A DNA stretch of 27,858 nucleotides from a virus. The position numbers and the translations under genes are program-made. The stretch lies in the IMG/VR virus record IMGVR_UViG_3300034104_004093, positions 1 to 27,858 of that record; one strand, written 5' to 3'. This document shows, one piece after another, positions 3,322 through 27,858 of this stretch (the first letter of the stretch is position 1; each line of letters starts with the position of its first letter). The notes under the pieces were generated by a model that saw only the letters and a list, made by a program, of their open reading frames with translations, did no database searches and was not told the origin of the DNA.

Positions 3322-4436
3322 CCTCTTATGATCGAAATAAATTCTTCTGGTAGATTAAAAGCCGTTGCAACCGCAATAAATGACATAACGACATTAGTAT
3401 CAACCGGGGATAGTTTCGTTAGTTCTTCCCAGACAATTCTAAAACTATTAAAGTTACCATGTTTTACCTCATAAAATGCGGCAGTAAAGGCCGAGGTTAC
3501 TAGTGCATTTTTTTGAGAAACGGCGAACATAAACTGCCTCATTTCTTCTGATTGCAAGACTATTCTTTCAAACCTATTCCAGTCTGCCGCTTTAGTCAGA
3601 ACCTTATCGGACCCACTATCAATCAAAATAATAGTATCTTCAATAATCGAAATAAATTGTTGTGGTAAATTAAGTGCCTGGGCCACGCCAATTATGGCCA
3701 GGATAACGTTTTTATTGACCGGGGAAATCCTTATCAGCTCATTCCAGACTATCTTAAAACTATTATACTTACCATTTTTTGATTCAAAAAAGGCCGCAGG
3801 AAAAGTAGAAGCAACTAATGGATTTTGAGTCGCGGCATAAGAAATAAAATCTCTTATTTCGGTAGACTGGAGAATAATGGTTTCAAAATTATCCCAGTCT
3901 GGGGGTAGTTGGGGTTTAGGTGGTTCTGTTGGGGGAACCGGGCGATTCAGGGCCTCTTCTAGAAGATTTATGATGACGTATTGCCTTATTGAATCATCCC
4001 ATTCCCATCTTTCTATTTCGGGATCATAATCATAATCAGGTACTGAATCAGTAAAAGTGGTTATAAAATAGGCCGGTCCTGATTCAAAAGATACTTCTTC
4101 TGGTAATTCAAGTGTATTATCTTCTGGGTTAAAGGTGGCCGAAGAAAAAATACCATTTCCGGATCTTGAAATCCAACCAGAAGTTGTTTCAGTAATACTA
4201 GAATTTTCAGGAGTAAAAGTATTGGTTTCTTGATTATAAGAGCCTTCTACTTTTTCTACGTTTTCAATAATTCTAGAAATTGGTCTTTCATGAGGACCGC
4301 TCCAACCTAACGAAATTAGTTCTTCATGAGAAATTTCTCTTAGGTCGGTTCTTACGGTTCCATCTGGATACCTATAATATTCTGGCAATTCTTGTGGCCA
4401 ACCGCCGTGGGGAGGACTATATTCTGGGAGTTTCAT
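3318..4436 (-). CDS. Putative virion/fibre-associated protein with a tandem 87-residue repeat
   Basis: This 372-residue protein falls into three parts. The N-terminal part (1-160) has YPDGTVRTDLREIS...LGWSGPHERP, resembling N-termini of tail-associated proteins in marine myoviruses; this is an impression, not a family match. A Pro-rich linker (PVPPTEPPKPQLPP, 166-179) follows. The C-terminal half is two copies of an 87-residue helical unit (180-266 and 285-371) sharing DWxxFExIxLQSxEMRxF, LVxSxFxAAF, SFxIVWxEL, SPVxxNV and FNLPxxFISII. The spacer 267-284 is not repeated. No catalytic motif is seen. It lies just downstream of a lectin-type variable gene and ends ATGA-coupled to the DUF1353 gene. 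No late promoter or clear Shine-Dalgarno precedes it, so it is probably transcribed through from 4999. Confidence 0.7.
   Translation of the reverse strand: MKLPEYSPPHGGWPQELPEYYRYPDGTVRTDLREISHEELISLGWSGPHERPISRIIENVEKVEGSYNQETNTFTPENSSITETTSGWISRSGNGIFSSATFNPEDNTLELPEEVSFESGPAYFITTFTDSVPDYDYDPEIERWEWDDSIRQYVIINLLEEALNRPVPPTEPPKPQLPPDWDNFETIILQSTEIRDFISYAATQNPLVASTFPAAFFESKNGKYNSFKIVWNELIRISPVNKNVILAIIGVAQALNLPQQFISIIEDTIILIDSGSDKVLTKAADWNRFERIVLQSEEMRQFMFAVSQKNALVTSAFTAAFYEVKHGNFNSFRIVWEELTKLSPVDTNVVMSFIAVATAFNLPEEFISIIRG
3324..3899 (-). repeat. Internal gene duplication: two 87-codon units
   Basis: Codons at 3639-3899 (residues 180-266) and 3324-3584 (residues 285-371) encode homologous units of identical length, separated by 18 codons. 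The DNA has diverged well beyond recent duplication, so the repeat is old and under protein-level constraint. Confidence 0.85.
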
Positions 4437-4454
4437 GGGCTTAGGAAAAAATTG

Positions 4455-4496
4455 GGTTCAAGGATCAAGGTTCAAGTTTCAAGGTTCAAGGTTCAA
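4455..4496 (-). repeat. Heptamer array, six units of TTGAACC
   Basis: Six 7-base units follow directly. On the plus strand they are GGTTCAA, GGATCAA, GGTTCAA, GTTTCAA, GGTTCAA, GGTTCAA. The array begins in the stop codon of the lectin-like gene at 4493-4999. A near-identical five-unit array with the same two variant units in the same order lies at 8106-8140, after the paralogous gene. The array does not look like a terminator or a CRISPR. Confidence 0.92.
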
Positions 4497-4999
4497 TAGG
4501 TTACACACCGGAAGGGGCGAACACAGAAAGTATTCGTCTTACTGCAACTGGCGATACTGCCATTACTGAAGTTCTGACCGCAGGCATTAGTAGAGGATAC
4601 CTCCGTAGAAGACCAATAATTGGAGCTGGCAAACGTGTCCCATTGGGTTCTACAGACGTAGCCGGGGTTGTTGAGTTGTGAAGAGGATGGAACAAACCAG
4701 TCACAAGGATTAAATCCACATTGGAGTAGTCGTGTATTGAGGGCTGGCCATTCGCAAATACAACATTTGTCTCCAACCTGGGTTGAGTTGTATTGACCAC
4801 CGGCCCATTGAGAACCTAGTTGAACACAGTTGGGAGCTACAAACCAGGCAACACCATTTGCCTTACAAATAAGTCTTGCACCATCTCTGGTTGCACAAGA
4901 AAGAGCACAACACCTGGCAAATGCCTTGTAATAACAATCATTAGGGGCCTCGGGAGAAGATAACCACCACCAGTTTGTCGGACCAACGTATATAGTCAT
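4493..4999 (-). CDS. C-type-lectin-like (DUF1566-type) variable protein, copy 1
   Basis: The 168-residue, cysteine-rich protein has a unique N-terminus (IYVGPTNWWW...) and a shared core (CVQLGSQWAGGQYNS, CCICEWPALNTRLL). The C-terminal fold resembles the DUF1566/C-type-lectin domain: CDWFVPSSSQL, YWSSTE-x6-A, F-x-NG and CVRPFRC. Many target proteins of diversity-generating retroelements use this fold to display a hypervariable ligand-binding surface. A paralogue lies at 8137-8607. They share a 152-bp identical block (4674-4825 here), but between residues 125 and 158 fifteen codons differ, nearly all changing the amino acid. A late promoter (CTAAATA, 5021-5027) lies 21 bases upstream and AAGG precedes the ATG. 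The likely role is a receptor-binding tip on the virion; this is inferred from fold and location. Confidence 0.78.
   Translation of the reverse strand: MTIYVGPTNWWWLSSPEAPNDCYYKAFARCCALSCATRDGARLICKANGVAWFVAPNCVQLGSQWAGGQYNSTQVGDKCCICEWPALNTRLLQCGFNPCDWFVPSSSQLNNPGYVCRTQWDTFASSNYWSSTEVSSTNACGQNFSNGSIASCSKTNTFCVRPFRCVTY
4526..4627 (-). other. Candidate DGR variable region (VR) of copy 1
   Basis: This 34-codon stretch (residues 125-158) differs from copy 2 (8170-8271) at 15 codons while the flanks are identical. Ten of the 15 keep the third base and change only positions 1 and/or 2, as expected when adenines of AAY codons in a template repeat are mutated. A GC-rich stretch follows (CGCCCCTTCCGG), where DGRs have their IMH element. 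Confidence 0.6.
4674..4825 (-). repeat. 152-bp block identical to 8318-8469
   Basis: This coding block is identical base for base, including third positions, to the same part of the paralogous lectin-like gene about 3.6 kb away. It covers the CVQLGSQW to SSSQ region. The N-terminal parts of the two genes are far more diverged, so recent gene conversion or recombination is likely. Confidence 0.88.
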
Positions 5000-5380: not shown

Positions 5381-6311
5381 AACTAAGACCTCTTTTATTT
5401 TCTAGTCTTTTTAATATTTCCTCATAAACTAAATTTTTCTCCTCTAATGTAAATTTAATTCGGTCCTCATTGAGCCTTACCGCAAGAGAACTATCATAAC
5501 TACAAATTCTCATCGGAGCCGGATAATACGTGCAGTCTCGTTCTATAATATGAAAATCGTCTGGATAAGACACATTATTTTTATGAGTACCCGCAATAAA
5601 AACGGATGCGGGGGTATTAACGGCCTTTGCAAAATGCTGACCACAACTATCACATCCGATAAAATAATCTGCCGCCTTAATGATTCCGACCCATTCTCTC
5701 ATGTTTGGGTCTGGCTGGGGCTTATATGACGTTCCGTCGTGGTGTTCATGGGCTCCCATATAAACAATATTGTACTTTAATGATAACTTTTTAATCAGGT
5801 CTTCATAAAAATCCTGAGGAAAAGACCGATAAGATGGGTCAAAAATACCTAAAGGACAACGATTTGCAGTACTTCCATATGGCTGAACCACAATTGTTTT
5901 TTGTTTTTTCTGAAGTTCCCTGACCTCATGAATAATCTGATGTCCTTTTAGTTCTTCAAACTGAGAAAGTTTGATATATTCAGAAGGAAGGTTTTCATAA
6001 TCAGTTGAATTATTGATTTCTTTATGAAATGCCTGAATAAGGTTTATTTCGCCCCTATAATATTCCGGGTCTTTGTATGGTTCTGGGGTGATAACCTTGT
6101 CGGCATCCCAGAAATAAGACTCAAAAATACCCTTATTTTCTGGATTGAATGTTCTTCCTTGTAATTGAGGAAATCCCCAAGAAAGAAAATCCCAGCCATG
6201 AATCATAAAGTAAAAATCTTCTTCTTTATGTTTTTCGGCAAAGTATAATAGTGCCGGAATTGCAGTAAGGGCTCTTCCGAGTCCACCATCAATTGTGATA
6301 ATTGTTTTCAT
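5373..6311 (-). CDS. GT9-like (heptosyltransferase-type) glycosyltransferase
   Basis: The 312-residue protein has a GT-B-like layout. An N-terminal Rossmann start (TIITIDGGLGRALTAIPALLYFAEK, 3-27) resembles the acceptor domain of ADP-heptose:LPS heptosyltransferases. The C-terminal half has IVVQPYGS (140-147) and the GT9-type donor site AADYFIGCDSCGQHFAKAV (213-231; compare DSGxxHLAaAl). It probably transfers a sugar from a nucleotide donor to a glycan; donor and acceptor cannot be read from the sequence. Its ATG overlaps the sulfotransferase stop (ATGA) and its end overlaps DUF6165. The context suggests modification of host surface glycan or of virion proteins. The family assignment is by motif and is moderate. 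Confidence 0.68.
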   Translation of the reverse strand: MKTIITIDGGLGRALTAIPALLYFAEKHKEEDFYFMIHGWDFLSWGFPQLQGRTFNPENKGIFESYFWDADKVITPEPYKDPEYYRGEINLIQAFHKEINNSTDYENLPSEYIKLSQFEELKGHQIIHEVRELQKKQKTIVVQPYGSTANRCPLGIFDPSYRSFPQDFYEDLIKKLSLKYNIVYMGAHEHHDGTSYKPQPDPNMREWVGIIKAADYFIGCDSCGQHFAKAVNTPASVFIAGTHKNNVSYPDDFHIIERDCTYYPAPMRICSYDSSLAVRLNEDRIKFTLEEKNLVYEEILKRLENKRGLSYG

Positions 6312-7132
6312 TTATAGCTTAATAATGTTTTAACCGATTTAGAAGTCTGATTTGGATATTTCCAAAACTCCATATTAGCAGACGAATATTTATCTACTAT
6401 CTCAGGAGGCAAGATTATTCTTGGTGGATTGTATTCTACTTTCTTCTTTACTGTATGCAAGTCCTTAAGATTACAGACATTATCAAATGGCTCATTAGAG
6501 TATTCTAAATTATTAAAATCGTGAGAATAATAATGGAGACCAAGAAAGTCGTAAATTTCTTTTAGGGTTTGCTCTGGATTTTTACAAAGTTTTTCGTATT
6601 CAACAAAGTAAATCATTTCAGGATTTGCATAATACCCTTCTTGAAGATTTAGCCAATTGGTTGTGATGAGTCCTTCTTTATTATCCATCATGGCATCGCA
6701 TCTTGAAAAGACATGGTGCCTTAGGTCTTCTTTGATTAGGGTATTTGTATAAAGTGGATTCTTTTTGAAAATGATCTCAAACGAATTCAGGATGTCAACA
6801 ATGTCTCTTACACAACATAAAATTTTTGTATAAGGAAAAAGTGTTTTGAGTAGGGTTGTCTTTTTAGTCCAGGCCCTTGAGGTGTCTATAATTACTTCTT
6901 TTTTTATGTGAGAATAATATCCCTCAAAAATATGTTGAAGTAATGAGATTCTTCTCTCTTCGTTTACAATGTAATTACTTTCACATCCCGTTAAAAGGTC
7001 TATTGAGGTTGTTGTGAGTCCTTCTACCGGAGACGAAATATCTGCATAAAGATTTGGGTTTTGTCTTAAAATTGAAGACAACAAAGTAGAGCCAGAACGA
7101 GGCAGGCCAGAGATAAAATAGTACTGCTTCAT
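6308..7132 (-). CDS. PAPS-dependent sulfotransferase
   Basis: The 274-residue protein begins with the 5'-phosphosulfate-binding loop SGLPRSGSTLLSSIL (8-22). It also has the 3'-phosphate-binding segment VRDIVDILNS (108-117), in which R109 and S117 keep the usual 8-residue spacing of sulfotransferases. VEYEKLCKNPEQTLKEIYDFLGL (about 178-200) is the typical helical segment near the C-terminus of the fold. It should transfer a sulfo group from PAPS to a hydroxyl or amino group of a sugar, lipid or protein; the acceptor is unknown. No signal peptide or membrane anchor is seen, so it acts in the cytoplasm. It is ATGA-coupled to the oxygenase gene upstream and to the GT gene downstream. Confidence 0.88.
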   Translation of the reverse strand: MKQYYFISGLPRSGSTLLSSILRQNPNLYADISSPVEGLTTTSIDLLTGCESNYIVNEERRISLLQHIFEGYYSHIKKEVIIDTSRAWTKKTTLLKTLFPYTKILCCVRDIVDILNSFEIIFKKNPLYTNTLIKEDLRHHVFSRCDAMMDNKEGLITTNWLNLQEGYYANPEMIYFVEYEKLCKNPEQTLKEIYDFLGLHYYSHDFNNLEYSNEPFDNVCNLKDLHTVKKKVEYNPPRIILPPEIVDKYSSANMEFWKYPNQTSKSVKTLLSYK

Positions 7133-7734
7133 TGTGGCGCGTAGGTTCCAGAAGGAAGGGCCAGGACATTAAAAGAAATTGAAATCCTTTCTTCATCATG
7201 TCTGTTTGGTTCAACTGAATGAGGAAGATAAGAAGGGAAAATAATAAGACTTCCTTCTTCTGGTTCAATCTTTAGCATATCACCAGTAAACTGGTTTTTA
7301 GATGCAGTGAGATTGCAGCCATTCCAAAGACGATTGATTCCAGGGTTTTTAAGAACCAGTTTACCACTTTGAGGTGGGGCCTTTAGATAAAAAGCCCCAG
7401 AAAATGTTTCTTCATGAATGTGCTCGGTGTTTATACATTCTCTTGAATCATTAAAATTCACCCAGGCACTGGTAAGGAATACATCACAATCAACAAAATT
7501 CAGGTCCTTGGTTGCCTGAAGACAGAGATTGCAGATGTAATTAAAAAGAGGTGCCAGATCTTGTTGTGTTTGGAGTGATGGTGGGGATTGATATCCATTT
7601 ACGTTTGATTTTTCTTGGGCCGGATTTTCATATTTGAAATCGTCAACACAAGAAAGAAAAGAGTCTTTATGTTGTTCAAAGTCTGGAAATACAGACATCC
7701 AGACAGGAGTAGAATAAATTGGCAGAAGTTCCAT
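7129..7734 (-). CDS. 2-oxoglutarate/Fe(II) oxygenase-like protein (TIGR02466 type)
   Basis: The 201-residue protein matches the small 2OG-Fe(II) oxygenase type common in marine T4-like phages. It starts with LLPIYSTPVW. The metal site lies in NTEHIHEETFSGAFYLKAP (102-120), where H105 or H107 with E108 would be the first ligands. FPSYLPHSVEPN (166-177) gives the distal His (H172), and R183 in ERISISFN is the expected 2-oxoglutarate contact. Such enzymes hydroxylate proteins, nucleic acids or small molecules. Here the substrate may be the glycan or protein worked on by the neighbouring sulfotransferase and glycosyltransferase. The start is 3 bases after the stop of the Avd/RT-like ORF, and the stop overlaps the sulfotransferase ATG. 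Confidence 0.85.
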   Translation of the reverse strand: MELLPIYSTPVWMSVFPDFEQHKDSFLSCVDDFKYENPAQEKSNVNGYQSPPSLQTQQDLAPLFNYICNLCLQATKDLNFVDCDVFLTSAWVNFNDSRECINTEHIHEETFSGAFYLKAPPQSGKLVLKNPGINRLWNGCNLTASKNQFTGDMLKIEPEEGSLIIFPSYLPHSVEPNRHDEERISISFNVLALPSGTYAPQ

Positions 7735-7737
7735 AAT

Positions 7738-8094
7738 TTAGATCAGTTTTTGATAATAGTACATTGTAAGATTGTTTCTTTTTGCGATTGATTTTCTTAG
7801 GTTGTAGCAGTTAATATGGCGAAACATTCCATAATACGAATTAATCGAGGCTTTTTCGGTTGCTCTTTTTGCGCGATGTTTAGTACAGTTTCTTATGTAT
7901 ATTGAAAATGGTTTAATGTATTTTGTTTTTTCTTTATGTCTTGCTGCTCGATAGATTAAATCAACACAATCAAGCATTGTATTTTGGATTCTAGTGCCAA
8001 GAGTAAATTTATATTCTCTAGGAAAATTTTTCACAATAATAAAAACTCGTTTTGTTAGCTCACGGGCGTCTCGATAGATTTTTAGTTCTTCCAT
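7738..8094 (-). CDS. Avd-like / reverse-transcriptase C-terminus chimera (DGR remnant)
   Basis: This 118-residue ORF appears to be two half-proteins joined. Residues 1 to about 55 (LKIYRDARELTKRV..., FPREYKFTLGTRIQ, VDLIYRAARHKEK) resemble the N-terminal helices of Avd, the four-helix-bundle accessory protein of DGRs. Residues from about 58 (YIKPFSIYIRNCTK, then ASINSYYGMFRHINCYNLRK, 82-101) resemble the end of a DGR reverse transcriptase: the KP-x-IYIRNRT strand and the thumb SINSYxGxxxH-x-x-YxLRK motif. The RT palm with its catalytic aspartates and any template repeat are absent. In Bordetella phage BPP-1 the order is target, avd, TR, RT, so one deletion would give this product. The ATG at 8094 is chosen; a TTG at 8112 inside the heptamer array is the alternative. 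No strong Shine-Dalgarno is seen. Assignment is from remembered motifs. Confidence 0.6.
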   Translation of the reverse strand: MEELKIYRDARELTKRVFIIVKNFPREYKFTLGTRIQNTMLDCVDLIYRAARHKEKTKYIKPFSIYIRNCTKHRAKRATEKASINSYYGMFRHINCYNLRKSIAKRNNLTMYYYQKLI

Positions 8095-8105
8095 TAAAAA
8101 ATTGC

Positions 8106-8140
8106 CGTTCAAGGATCAAGGTTCAAGTTTCAAGGTTCAA
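8106..8140 (-). repeat. Heptamer array, five units, paralogous to 4455-4496
   Basis: The units on the plus strand are CGTTCAA, GGATCAA, GGTTCAA, GTTTCAA, GGTTCAA. The order of variants matches the array after lectin-like copy 1, with one GGTTCAA fewer and one G-to-C change in the first unit. The array spans the gap between lectin-like copy 2 and the Avd/RT-like ORF and begins in the stop codon of copy 2. Confidence 0.92.
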
Positions 8141-8607
8141 TAGGTTACACACCGGAAGGGGCGAACACAGGTCACGGTCACCTTATTGAGGCTGGTGATA
8201 GAGCCATTATCGAAGCCCTGAAAGCAGGCATTAGTAGAGGATACCTCCGTAGAAGACCAATAAAGCGCAGCGGCAAACGTGTCCCATTGGGTTCTACAAA
8301 CGTAACCGGGATTATTTAGTTGTGAAGAGGATGGAACAAACCAGTCACAAGGATTAAATCCACATTGGAGTAGTCGTGTATTGAGGGCTGGCCATTCGCA
8401 AATACAACATTTGTCTCCAACCTGGGTTGAGTTGTATTGACCACCGGCCCATTGAGAACCTAGTTGAACGCAGTTGGGAGCAACTATCCATGCAGTTCCA
8501 CCAGCCTTACAGATAATTCTACTGCCATCAGGAAGAGTTGTTCCAACAGGACAGGCCCTGACTAAATTTGATTGCCACCAAGGAGTTGGTCCGATAATAA
8601 GTCCCAT
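8137..8607 (-). CDS. C-type-lectin-like (DUF1566-type) variable protein, copy 2
   Basis: The 156-residue paralogue of the gene at 4493-4999 has a different, shorter N-terminus (MGLIIGPTPWWQSNLVRACP...), the same cysteine-rich core, and the same DUF1566-like C-terminus (CDWFVPSSSQL, YWSSTE, CVRPFRC). The variable stretch is residues 113-146: FAAALYW here against FASSNYW in copy 1, and FQGFDNGSITSLNKVTV against GQNFSNGSIASCSKTNT. The Avd/RT-like ORF follows directly, the target-then-avd order of known DGRs. A late promoter (CTAAATA, 8628-8634) lies 20 bases before the ATG. It follows the fibre genes, which supports a receptor-binding role at a fibre tip; the exact location in the virion is unknown. 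Confidence 0.78.
   Translation of the reverse strand: MGLIIGPTPWWQSNLVRACPVGTTLPDGSRIICKAGGTAWIVAPNCVQLGSQWAGGQYNSTQVGDKCCICEWPALNTRLLQCGFNPCDWFVPSSSQLNNPGYVCRTQWDTFAAALYWSSTEVSSTNACFQGFDNGSITSLNKVTVTCVRPFRCVTY
8170..8271 (-). other. Candidate DGR variable region (VR) of copy 2
   Basis: This 34-codon stretch aligns without gaps to 4526-4627. Examples of paired codons (copy 1/copy 2) are AAT/CTT, GGT/TTT, AAC/GGC, AGT/GAT, TGC/CTC and TTC/ACC. Thirteen conserved codons (YWSSTEVSSTNAC) sit between the first three variable codons and the rest. Confidence 0.6.
8318..8469 (-). repeat. 152-bp block identical to 4674-4825
   Basis: This is the second member of the identical block pair in the two lectin-like genes. 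Just beyond it, in the seven codons before the shared CRTQWDTFA segment, there are five differences, all silent third-position changes. Confidence 0.88.
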
Positions 8608-24694: not shown

Positions 24695-27421
24695 TCAGAG
24701 TTTACATGCGTCACAATCTTCTTCCTCCGTGTCTAGAATGTCGTCTACTAAATTTTCTACTTCCATATCATCATCTTTACCGTCATAGGTATTGAGATAA
24801 TATGCTGTCTTATGTCCCATCGAGTAAGCGGAAAGGAAATCCTTAACGATAACACTCATTGGAACTTTATTGTCCGGATAATGCTGTGGATTATAGCTCC
24901 AGTTGGTACTTATAGATTGATCAAAGAATTTTTGCATTACTGCAACAATATTAAAGTATCCTTCATTTGATTTCATGTCCCAGAGTAGAGTATAATTATT
25001 TTTTAGTTTATTATACTGAGGGACAATGTTGCGAACTTTTCTCTTAACAGAAAGATATCCGCGAGGTGGCTCGATTCCATTAGTTGTATTAAGTACCTTT
25101 GATGACGATTCACAAGGCATGTTCGATGAGTGAGTAGTATGTCTCAGGCCAAATGTGTCAATTTCTTTTCTAAGAGCCTCCCAATCATGATGTAGGGGTT
25201 CTGAACAAATATTATCAACCTCTTTTTTGTAAGTATCAATTGGTAAAATACCATCAGCATATTTTGTATTCATAAATCCTTCACATGCGCCCTTTTCTTT
25301 TGCTAGTTGCACCGAAGTTTTAAGTAAATAATACTGAAAACTTTCACTCAGTCTATGAACAAGATTGACTGCTTCTGGATCCTCATAATTTACACTATTT
25401 CTGGCCAGATAATGAGCCAGACCAGTTATTCCAATTCCTAGAGTTCTATTTTTCTTTGTAGGAATTTCCGCTGCCTTGACAGGATATTCTTGAATATCAA
25501 TCAATTCATCAAGGAATCTAACAATAAGATCACAATATTCTTGAAGTTCATCAAGAGATCTTAAAGTCCCAACGTTTATAGCAGAAAGAATACAAAGGGC
25601 AATGGCCCCATTAATGTCATCAATATGTTCTAGGGGTTCCGTTAGAAGAGTTATTTCCATGCAATTAGAAACGAGAACTCCATTTGCAAAGAAATTGTGT
25701 GTACCATCTACAGTAATATCATAAACAGGAATTTCTTCCTCAAGATATTCTGTTGAAACAACTTTTAGGCATTCATTTAATTTTGTTGAAACTAATTCAT
25801 CATAAGCAGTCAGGTCCTTGGCCATTATATAATCACGATTTTTGGTATAAACCTTATGATCTGGAGTAACAACAATCTCAGTATTATTACTAAAATTAAG
25901 TTTCATCACCTGGGCTTTTGGTGATGTTTCAGCAAAAGCAGTAATTGGTTTTGTTACATTGAATCCAGTATTAAGGTCATAAGAAAGAACTCTCAAATCC
26001 CCATACTCTGGATTGTTGATAAAATCATTTAGATTTTTTATATCAATTGTTGCCCACCTGTAATCTTCTATATCCTTAACAAAAAGTTTAATTTCAATTT
26101 TAGTATCACCAGCAACACAGAGGTTACTCATCCTTACAGTCTTTTTATAAGGACTGTGAGAATTAACATGGTCAATATTCATCAGATAAAGGCGACCAGT
26201 ATCGCTTCTCTCACCTAAAATTTCAAGAGTTAATTCTTGGGCATTTACAACTTCTTTTGGAATTGATGGATCATTTTCATACCTTACATAAAGATCATCA
26301 AATTCTGGTGTTCCAAATGCCTCATAAAGACCAGGCACATCATAGGGAGAGAACAATGTAATATCTCCATTTTTAATGAATCGCTCATAAAAAATCTTAG
26401 AAGTAGTTACAGCATAATCGAGAGAACGAGCCCGATTTTCGTCATTACCTTTTTCATTTTTTAGTACGATCAACTCACGAATTTCCTGGTGCCAAATAGG
26501 AAAAAATAAAGTTGCCGAACCTTTCCTGATACTTCCTTGAGAACAAGAATTTAAAATACCTTCAAAGGACTTAATAAAAGGAACAAGGCCAGTATGAATA
26601 GCATCACCCTTGCGTATTTCTTTACCTAGACCACGAATTCTTCCTACATTCAGACCAACCCCGGCCTTATTTGAAACATATCTCATCAAGGCAGAATTAG
26701 TCGCAATAATAGACTCAAGAGAATCACCACAATCTAAAAGAGTGCAACTAGAGTATTGCCGCTTTTTAGTCCTAACTGCCGCCATAATTGGCGTAGGAAT
26801 ATTAATTTTATGCTTACTGGCCACATCATAAAATCTTTTAACATAACTTAGTCTAGTCTCTTTTGGATACTTTGCAAATCCAACCAGACCAATCATAATA
26901 TACATAAACTGCGGAGTCTCATAAAGAGTCTTAGTAGTTCTGTTTTGAACAAGATACTTATCCACCGCCTCACGCATTGCAGCATAAGTAAACAATAGGT
27001 CCCGGTCATGGTCAATAAAAGAATTGGCCTCGTCTAATTCTTCTTCGGTATAATTATCATAAATGGCCGAGTCATAAACACCAAGATCCACACATTTTTT
27101 GATGTGCTCGCTTAGATGAGGTAGATCAATTCGGCCACCATAAATCTTCTTCCGAATAGAAAATAGAAGAAGCCTGGCCGCGACGTACTGATAATTTGGA
27201 TGCTCCAAAGAAATTAAATCAGATGCAGATTTAATAAGAATCTCCTGGATCTCATTAGTCGTAATGCCATCATAAAACTGAATCCCAGAGGCCATTTCCA
27301 CTTGGGACACAGAAACCCCAGAAAGGCCCTCACAGGCGCACTGGACCATCTCATGGAGCTTTGATAGCTGCAACGGCTCAATACCGCCATTGCGTTTTTT
27401 TACATTAATTTCCTCGTTCAT
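24695..27421 (-). CDS. nrdA: Ribonucleotide reductase class Ia, alpha subunit, with mini-intein
   Basis: The precursor is 908 residues; removing the intein leaves 756, close to E. coli NrdA (761). Numbering from the ATG: an ATP-cone region (about 8-95), the active-site cysteines C226 (SSCTLLDC) and C610 (ALCILSAIN) as redox pair, C587 (CMEI) as thiyl-radical residue with E589, the tyrosines Y874/Y875 (AYYLNTYDG) of the radical path, and the C-terminal pair C903/C906 (CDACKL). The intein (435-586) interrupts directly before C587. The ATG at 27421 overlaps the primase stop (ATGA) and has GGAAG 6 bases upstream; a TTG four codons earlier was rejected. It supplies deoxynucleotides for phage DNA replication together with nrdB, which follows. 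Confidence 0.95.
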   Translation of the reverse strand: MNEEINVKKRNGGIEPLQLSKLHEMVQCACEGLSGVSVSQVEMASGIQFYDGITTNEIQEILIKSASDLISLEHPNYQYVAARLLLFSIRKKIYGGRIDLPHLSEHIKKCVDLGVYDSAIYDNYTEEELDEANSFIDHDRDLLFTYAAMREAVDKYLVQNRTTKTLYETPQFMYIMIGLVGFAKYPKETRLSYVKRFYDVASKHKINIPTPIMAAVRTKKRQYSSCTLLDCGDSLESIIATNSALMRYVSNKAGVGLNVGRIRGLGKEIRKGDAIHTGLVPFIKSFEGILNSCSQGSIRKGSATLFFPIWHQEIRELIVLKNEKGNDENRARSLDYAVTTSKIFYERFIKNGDITLFSPYDVPGLYEAFGTPEFDDLYVRYENDPSIPKEVVNAQELTLEILGERSDTGRLYLMNIDHVNSHSPYKKTVRMSNLCVAGDTKIEIKLFVKDIEDYRWATIDIKNLNDFINNPEYGDLRVLSYDLNTGFNVTKPITAFAETSPKAQVMKLNFSNNTEIVVTPDHKVYTKNRDYIMAKDLTAYDELVSTKLNECLKVVSTEYLEEEIPVYDITVDGTHNFFANGVLVSNCMEITLLTEPLEHIDDINGAIALCILSAINVGTLRSLDELQEYCDLIVRFLDELIDIQEYPVKAAEIPTKKNRTLGIGITGLAHYLARNSVNYEDPEAVNLVHRLSESFQYYLLKTSVQLAKEKGACEGFMNTKYADGILPIDTYKKEVDNICSEPLHHDWEALRKEIDTFGLRHTTHSSNMPCESSSKVLNTTNGIEPPRGYLSVKRKVRNIVPQYNKLKNNYTLLWDMKSNEGYFNIVAVMQKFFDQSISTNWSYNPQHYPDNKVPMSVIVKDFLSAYSMGHKTAYYLNTYDGKDDDMEVENLVDDILDTEEEDCDACKL
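25664..26119 (-). other. Mini-intein in NrdA (152 residues, no endonuclease domain)
   Basis: It starts with C435 (CVAGDTKIEI, block A). Block B is near 516-532 (IVVTPDHKVYTKNRDY, with T519 and H522 of the TxxH motif). Block F is VYDITVDGTHNFFANG and block G ends VLVSN followed by extein C587. The penultimate residue is Ser where most inteins have His; several inteins splice without that His. About 60 residues separate the N-terminal block from block B and no LAGLIDADG or HNH motif is present, so it is a splicing-only intein. Confidence 0.93.
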
Positions 27422-27858
27422 TTTTTCTTCCAAAAGTTAAATTTGAGTTGTGCTTCTAAGTTACTGTAAACATTTTTGGACAAAACGTCCTCGACATCAA
27501 TACCGGCTAGTACCGCATCATTAACGTCCTTTTCTTTTATTGTTTCTGGCCATATTACGATTGAATACCCTCTTTGAATTGCCTTTGACATTCTGTCATG
27601 GATCTCTTTATTGCGGGGTTCGTTATCATAAACATAAACCGGGTAATAGATATTTAGATTTTTTAAATCTACATCGGCCCCACACATGGCGACCGAATTT
27701 TTAATAAAATAAGAATCAAATGGACCCTCTAAAACATAAACAGGTTTTTCTTTATTGATTGAATCATAATTATAAATTTTAGGAGCATCTTTGTCAAACA
27801 TAATGGTTATATATTTGACGAGAGAAGGGCCAATAGAGCGTCCCTGGACCCCAATTAA
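27418..27858 (-). CDS. DNA primase, C-terminal part (T4 gp61-like, TOPRIM domain)
   Basis: The frame is open to the right window edge, so the 5' part is missing. The visible 146 residues begin LIGVQGRSIGPSLVKYITIM and continue FDKDAPKIYNYDSI. This is the lead-in to the TOPRIM fold, which shows KPVYVLEGPFDSYFI (Glu in the EGPFDS loop) and YVYDNEPRNKEI (the DxD-like acidic motif). KDVNDAVLAG follows. T4 gp61-type primases share this order and make RNA primers at the replication fork with the gp41 helicase. An internal ATG at 27801 would give 127 residues, but the upstream coding similarity shows it is not the start. The stop overlaps the nrdA ATG (ATGA). Confidence 0.88.
   Translation of the reverse strand, partial: LIGVQGRSIGPSLVKYITIMFDKDAPKIYNYDSINKEKPVYVLEGPFDSYFIKNSVAMCGADVDLKNLNIYYPVYVYDNEPRNKEIHDRMSKAIQRGYSIVIWPETIKEKDVNDAVLAGIDVEDVLSKNVYSNLEAQLKFNFWKKK

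Follow-up and report, generated by a model that had tools for sequence, protein, structure and literature searches.

How an open reading frame comes to hold the beginning of one gene and the end of another, and whether its product is a relic or a protein in use, is the question raised by a locus in the IMG/VR record IMGVR_UViG_3300034104_004093, a genome fragment of 27,858 bases analysed here at its full length and referred to as the window. The two genes involved are components of a diversity-generating retroelement (DGR): the accessory gene avd and the gene of the reverse transcriptase (RT). In the DGR of Bordetella phage BPP-1, the elements follow the order mtd-avd-TR-brt (TR, template repeat), the differences in the variable region (VR) are adenine-specific, and a hairpin follows the VR. 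The window very probably carries a dead DGR of a T4-like cyanophage, in which one deletion of about 1.3 kb would have fused the start of avd to the end of the RT gene. The fusion and its parts are located as follows.

7738 to 8094, minus strand: Avd::RT fusion ORF, 118 aa (coding sequence 7741-8094, stop codon 7738-7740).
7918 to 8094, minus strand: Avd-derived part, codons 1-59, matched by PHROG 3206.
7741 to 7917, minus strand: RT-derived part, codons 60-118, the C-terminus of a DGR RT without the catalytic residues, matched by PHROG 1423.
7915 to 7923, minus strand: deletion join, codons 58-60 (AAA TAC ATT), placed by alignment to intact relatives.

The original prediction, made from the letters of the sequence, had claimed that an Avd half and a DGR RT C-terminus share this ORF, and separate profile searches in PHROGs bore it out, each half matching its own profile. 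For residues 1-70 the match is PHROG 3206, 'Avd protein of DGR' (E 3.2e-14). Residues 58-109 align to the RT profile PHROG 1423 at its positions 388-440 (E 2.6e-5), and the RT match was kept when the last 59 residues were searched alone (E 1e-5). Since the intact RT of a relative, L001, spans positions 108-435 of that profile, the match of the fusion corresponds to the C-terminal end of the RT. Pfam bAvd was also matched, at residues 10-60 (E 1.1e-9). In the alignment to intact relatives, codons 1-57 correspond to Avd and codons 60-118 to the RT end, with 72-79% identity in the Avd half and 61-79% in the RT half, far above chance. Avd is thereby represented in the window record by codons 1-59 only, leaving the accessory protein incomplete, and RT by its last 59 residues only, with the catalytic domain missing. 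No homologue spanning the join was found among the IMG/VR relatives, the fusion being present in no other record, and a degenerate DNA pattern spanning the join gave zero matches in viral contigs; no relative carries the 118-residue protein as a single conserved family, which would have spoken against the prediction.

The phage itself can be placed through the genes around the cassette. NrdB of the window shares 89% identity with its counterpart in Synechococcus phage B23 (MN695335, Kyanoviridae), and the two agree in a gene order that runs from NrdA across the tail-fibre genes, as far as the one that precedes the cassette. The 40-kb region of B23 examined has no match to the window's target, oxygenase or glycosyl genes, nor to the fusion. 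In the window NrdA (24695-27433) a small intein is recognised by Pfam Intein_splicing (E 3.5e-13), and the gene has 912 codons versus 757 in B23.

To recover relatives of the locus, IMG/VR was scanned with the fusion, the oxygenase, the RT, the targets and Avd, and the resulting loci were jointly searched for all parts. Six intact lineages were obtained (L001, L002, L051/L053, L055, L070/L071 and L072/L073), in which a target is followed by avd (110-111 aa), TR, RT (about 345 aa) and, within about 25 nt, the same 2OG oxygenase as in the window. The target-avd-TR-RT order proposed as the ancestral layout is thus present among the relatives, and the intact avd-TR-RT that was sought between the two halves lies exactly there, with the same target gene on one side and the same oxygenase gene on the other. 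These cassettes resemble that of BPP-1 in gene order, in the adenine-specific VR differences and in the Avd and RT families. The three VRs of L001 differ from its TR at 14-19 of the 39 A columns and at 0 of the 78 other columns; in L002, L051, L055, L070 and L072 the differences likewise concentrate at adenines, other changes being found mainly at the alignment edges. Judged by these patterns, the cassettes of L001, L002, L051, L055, L070 and L072 look like ordinary, working DGRs. In L001, further targets occur away from the cassette, elsewhere in that phage. Every RT-bearing record examined gave a single RT match, that of the cassette, and in the window the RTs of L001 and L002 find a match at the fusion only.

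Compared with the six intact relatives, a segment of consistent length (1288-1303 nt between the joined points) is missing from the window, comprising the second half of avd, the TR, and the RT from residue 1 up to about residue 284 with the YxDD catalytic motif, which reads YLDD and YMDD in the relatives. A deletion from the middle of avd into the RT, removing the TR and the palm, had been anticipated, and the absence of about 1.3 kb agrees with it; that it happened in a single event is what we infer. The join had been expected near the A-rich tract at 7921-7935 and was located at 7915-7923, on the edge of that tract.

Two target genes, the second of which was absent from the original prediction, accompany the fusion, each with a VR and a set of repeats.

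8137 to 8607, minus strand: target gene 1, 156 aa, with an Lcl_C-like C-terminus, directly upstream of the fusion across a 42-nt gap.
8152 to 8268, minus strand: VR of target 1, the core used in the VR-TR comparison.
8109 to 8140, minus strand: direct repeats TTGAACC, 7 bp, just after target 1, a possible homing element.
4493 to 4999, minus strand: target gene 2, 168 aa, a paralogue of target 1.
4508 to 4624, minus strand: VR of target 2, the core used in the VR-TR comparison.
4458 to 4496, minus strand: direct repeats TTGAACC, 7 bp, just after target 2, a possible homing element.

The target gene that the original prediction placed directly ahead of the fusion is in place, while its description as DUF1566-type stands on less firm ground, the DUF1566/Lcl_C matches of the targets being weak and below the Pfam cut-off (E 0.034 and 3e-4). 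These matches bear on the C-type-lectin-like C-terminal domain in which DGR target proteins carry the VR, a fold that the two targets may have. The targets probably serve in attachment, as proteins of the tail tip. Relatives of the target protein were not found among isolate phages at E 0.01, and genome contigs gave one weak match. The two window VRs differ at 20 of the 39 columns which are A in the L001 TR and at 6 of the 78 others (p 2.6e-7), the adenine columns being defined by the TR of this relative as the window's own is missing. No copy of a TR was detected in the window, where the L001 TR matches only the two VRs. Given adenine-biased VR differences in a record with neither TR nor RT, an absence that refers to this fragment only, the window shows traces of earlier diversification without the machinery that made it.

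In the 200 bp that precede the VR, the two targets are nearly identical along most of the stretch, and within it a short cluster of silent differences (about 4653-4675 versus 8297-8319) suggests gene conversion. Three to five direct repeats of 7-8 bp, then a T-run, follow most VR-bearing targets (window, L001, L002, L008, L051, L055 and L070), and are weak or missing after targets with drifted VRs (L007, L042a/b, L054a and L061); they may represent a homing element. A BPP-1-like hairpin was not found after the VR, and the direct repeats do not fold as one. The window thus departs from BPP-1 in its 7-bp repeats, in its two targets, and in a core that lacks the TR, the catalytic domain of the RT and one half of avd.

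The loss recorded in the window is one of a series. Seven records, the window included, keep differently truncated avd stumps, and the six others are cut elsewhere: at about codon 14 in L009, 15 in L066, 42 in L062 and 94 in L074, and at codons 48-55 with a frameshift in L003, while L008 has an avd of about 37 codons interrupted by an IS605-type TnpB ORF (3709-4893). In L007, L054, L056, L061 and L063, targets stand before the oxygenase with no recognisable avd. No RT was found in the RT-less records examined, including the 243-kb record of L003, from a large T4-like phage with a T4-type major capsid protein, Gp23. Four target-like genes lie in this same RT-less record, near 44785, 170159, 238910 and 241508. 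Intact and lost records are mixed in the oxygenase tree, where well-supported branches force at least five state changes. The avd stumps show that the direction of change in the cassette is loss; of the gain and loss of diversification envisaged in the original prediction, it is loss that stands, documented by several differently truncated relatives.

The VRs of these records can also be compared by their differences at non-adenine columns, which number 0/78 among the L001 paralogues, 1-2/78 in L008, 4/78 in L009, 6/78 in the window, 4/76 in L003 against the L002 TR, and 23-32/78 in L007, where indels are present in the VRs as well. These values may be read as a rough scale of the time since core loss, to which differences between the lost TRs could contribute.

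On the other side of the fusion, the locus is marked by the gene that follows the RT in intact relatives.

7129 to 7734, minus strand: 2OG-Fe(II) oxygenase, right-hand marker of the locus.

Its start lies 3 nt past the fusion stop. In the clade to which L051 and L055 belong, the last RT codons contain a promoter-like site for the oxygenase (L051 5440-5467), and L062, L066 and L074 retain this part of the RT tail although the rest is lost (L062 site 5548-5576). Around the RT tail of the window, the search for a promoter-like site returned 0 versus 2.5 expected, with a score not above shuffles. A promoter as the reason for the retention of the RT tail is accordingly suggested in the sister clade and not detected in the window.

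Taken together, these observations can be arranged in the following sequence. The ancestor would have carried one or more target genes, avd, TR, RT and then the 2OG oxygenase, with RT and Avd copying the TR with errors at adenines and writing the copy into the target VRs. One deletion of about 1.3 kb, from around avd codon 59 to around RT codon 285, would have taken the rest of avd, the TR and the catalytic RT, leaving the reading frame open by chance. Diversification would have ended with it, so that the VRs would now change by ordinary mutation and the fusion protein would be without DGR function. If the fusion is translated, its simplest role would be a passive one, ribosomes being carried to the oxygenase start.

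Other readings of the join need to be weighed against this one. It is very unlikely that the fusion is a selected functional protein, such as an RNA-binding protein put to a new use or a decoy that interferes with the DGR in co-infecting relatives. The frame is open across the join and only 2 of the 63 sites conserved in intact relatives are changed in the two halves, both of which look constrained; this fits a recent deletion and would also fit continuing selection on the fusion, two options that dN/dS leaves inseparable here, the synonymous sites being saturated and the sequences short. However, a random deletion preserves the frame one time in three, the fusion occurs in no other record, and none of the six stumps cut elsewhere is in-frame with RT sequence. 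A structure prediction of the fusion was set aside, its low confidence (mean pLDDT 52) and the lack of a clear fold saying little either way. Service to the next gene, with the RT tail as oxygenase promoter or through translational coupling, is compatible with a dead DGR and is a possibility of some weight, albeit an unlikely one: the promoter-like site in the RT tail of the sister clade, the tails kept by its truncated counterparts and the 3-nt spacing speak for it, but the RT tail of the window is without such a site. That the open fusion frame could help oxygenase translation is a guess.

An assembly artefact concealing a real phage with an intact DGR is very improbable. The window is a metagenome contig and the join lies beside an A-rich stretch, but no long repeat common to avd and RT is seen at the joined points in the relatives, many other records show similar losses, and the window VRs carry non-adenine differences like those of other RT-less records. 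There is likewise little likelihood that an RT outside the cassette, encoded in another part of the genome or by a co-infecting relative, continues to diversify the targets in trans. The adenine bias of the window VRs remains strong and remote targets do exist in L001, but the RT-bearing records examined have the single RT match of the cassette, the RT-less ones have none, and six non-adenine differences separate the window VRs whereas none is found among those of L001. A dead DGR left by one deletion is hence the reading retained here. A bolder version of it, in which core loss itself is favoured in these cyanophages, is rather improbable: attachment genes would be diversified and multiplied, the mutator deleted and the repertoire frozen, with the Avd::RT fusion kept because translated and useful, e.g. 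in oxygenase coupling or in interference with the machinery of relatives.

Orphaned targets of DGRs have been described before, and the fusion is filed among DGR remnants. In Treponema denticola, targets with adenine-biased VRs persist without RT and TR and are read as leftovers of core loss; this case is bacterial, and the parts of the report consulted describe no avd-RT fusion (PMC4891356). Among the epsilon crAss-like phages, one genus has complete DGR cassettes together with cassettes whose RT is fragmented or deleted; these are gut phages of another lineage, and no in-frame Avd::RT fusion is described in the sections consulted (PMC11054128). A cyanobacterium with a degraded DGR between transposases has been reported as well (PMC7517822). 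In a limited literature search, no report was found of an in-frame Avd::RT fusion, of a graded loss series or of DGR loss in cyanophages.

Evidence for the loss of the DGR core has so far come for the most part from orphaned targets. In these related phages, a single locus shows one cassette in intact, freshly cut and long-dead form, with cut points that can be read. How often a virus drops the targeted mutation of its probable attachment proteins yet keeps several copies of the targets, and for what reason, thereby becomes testable.
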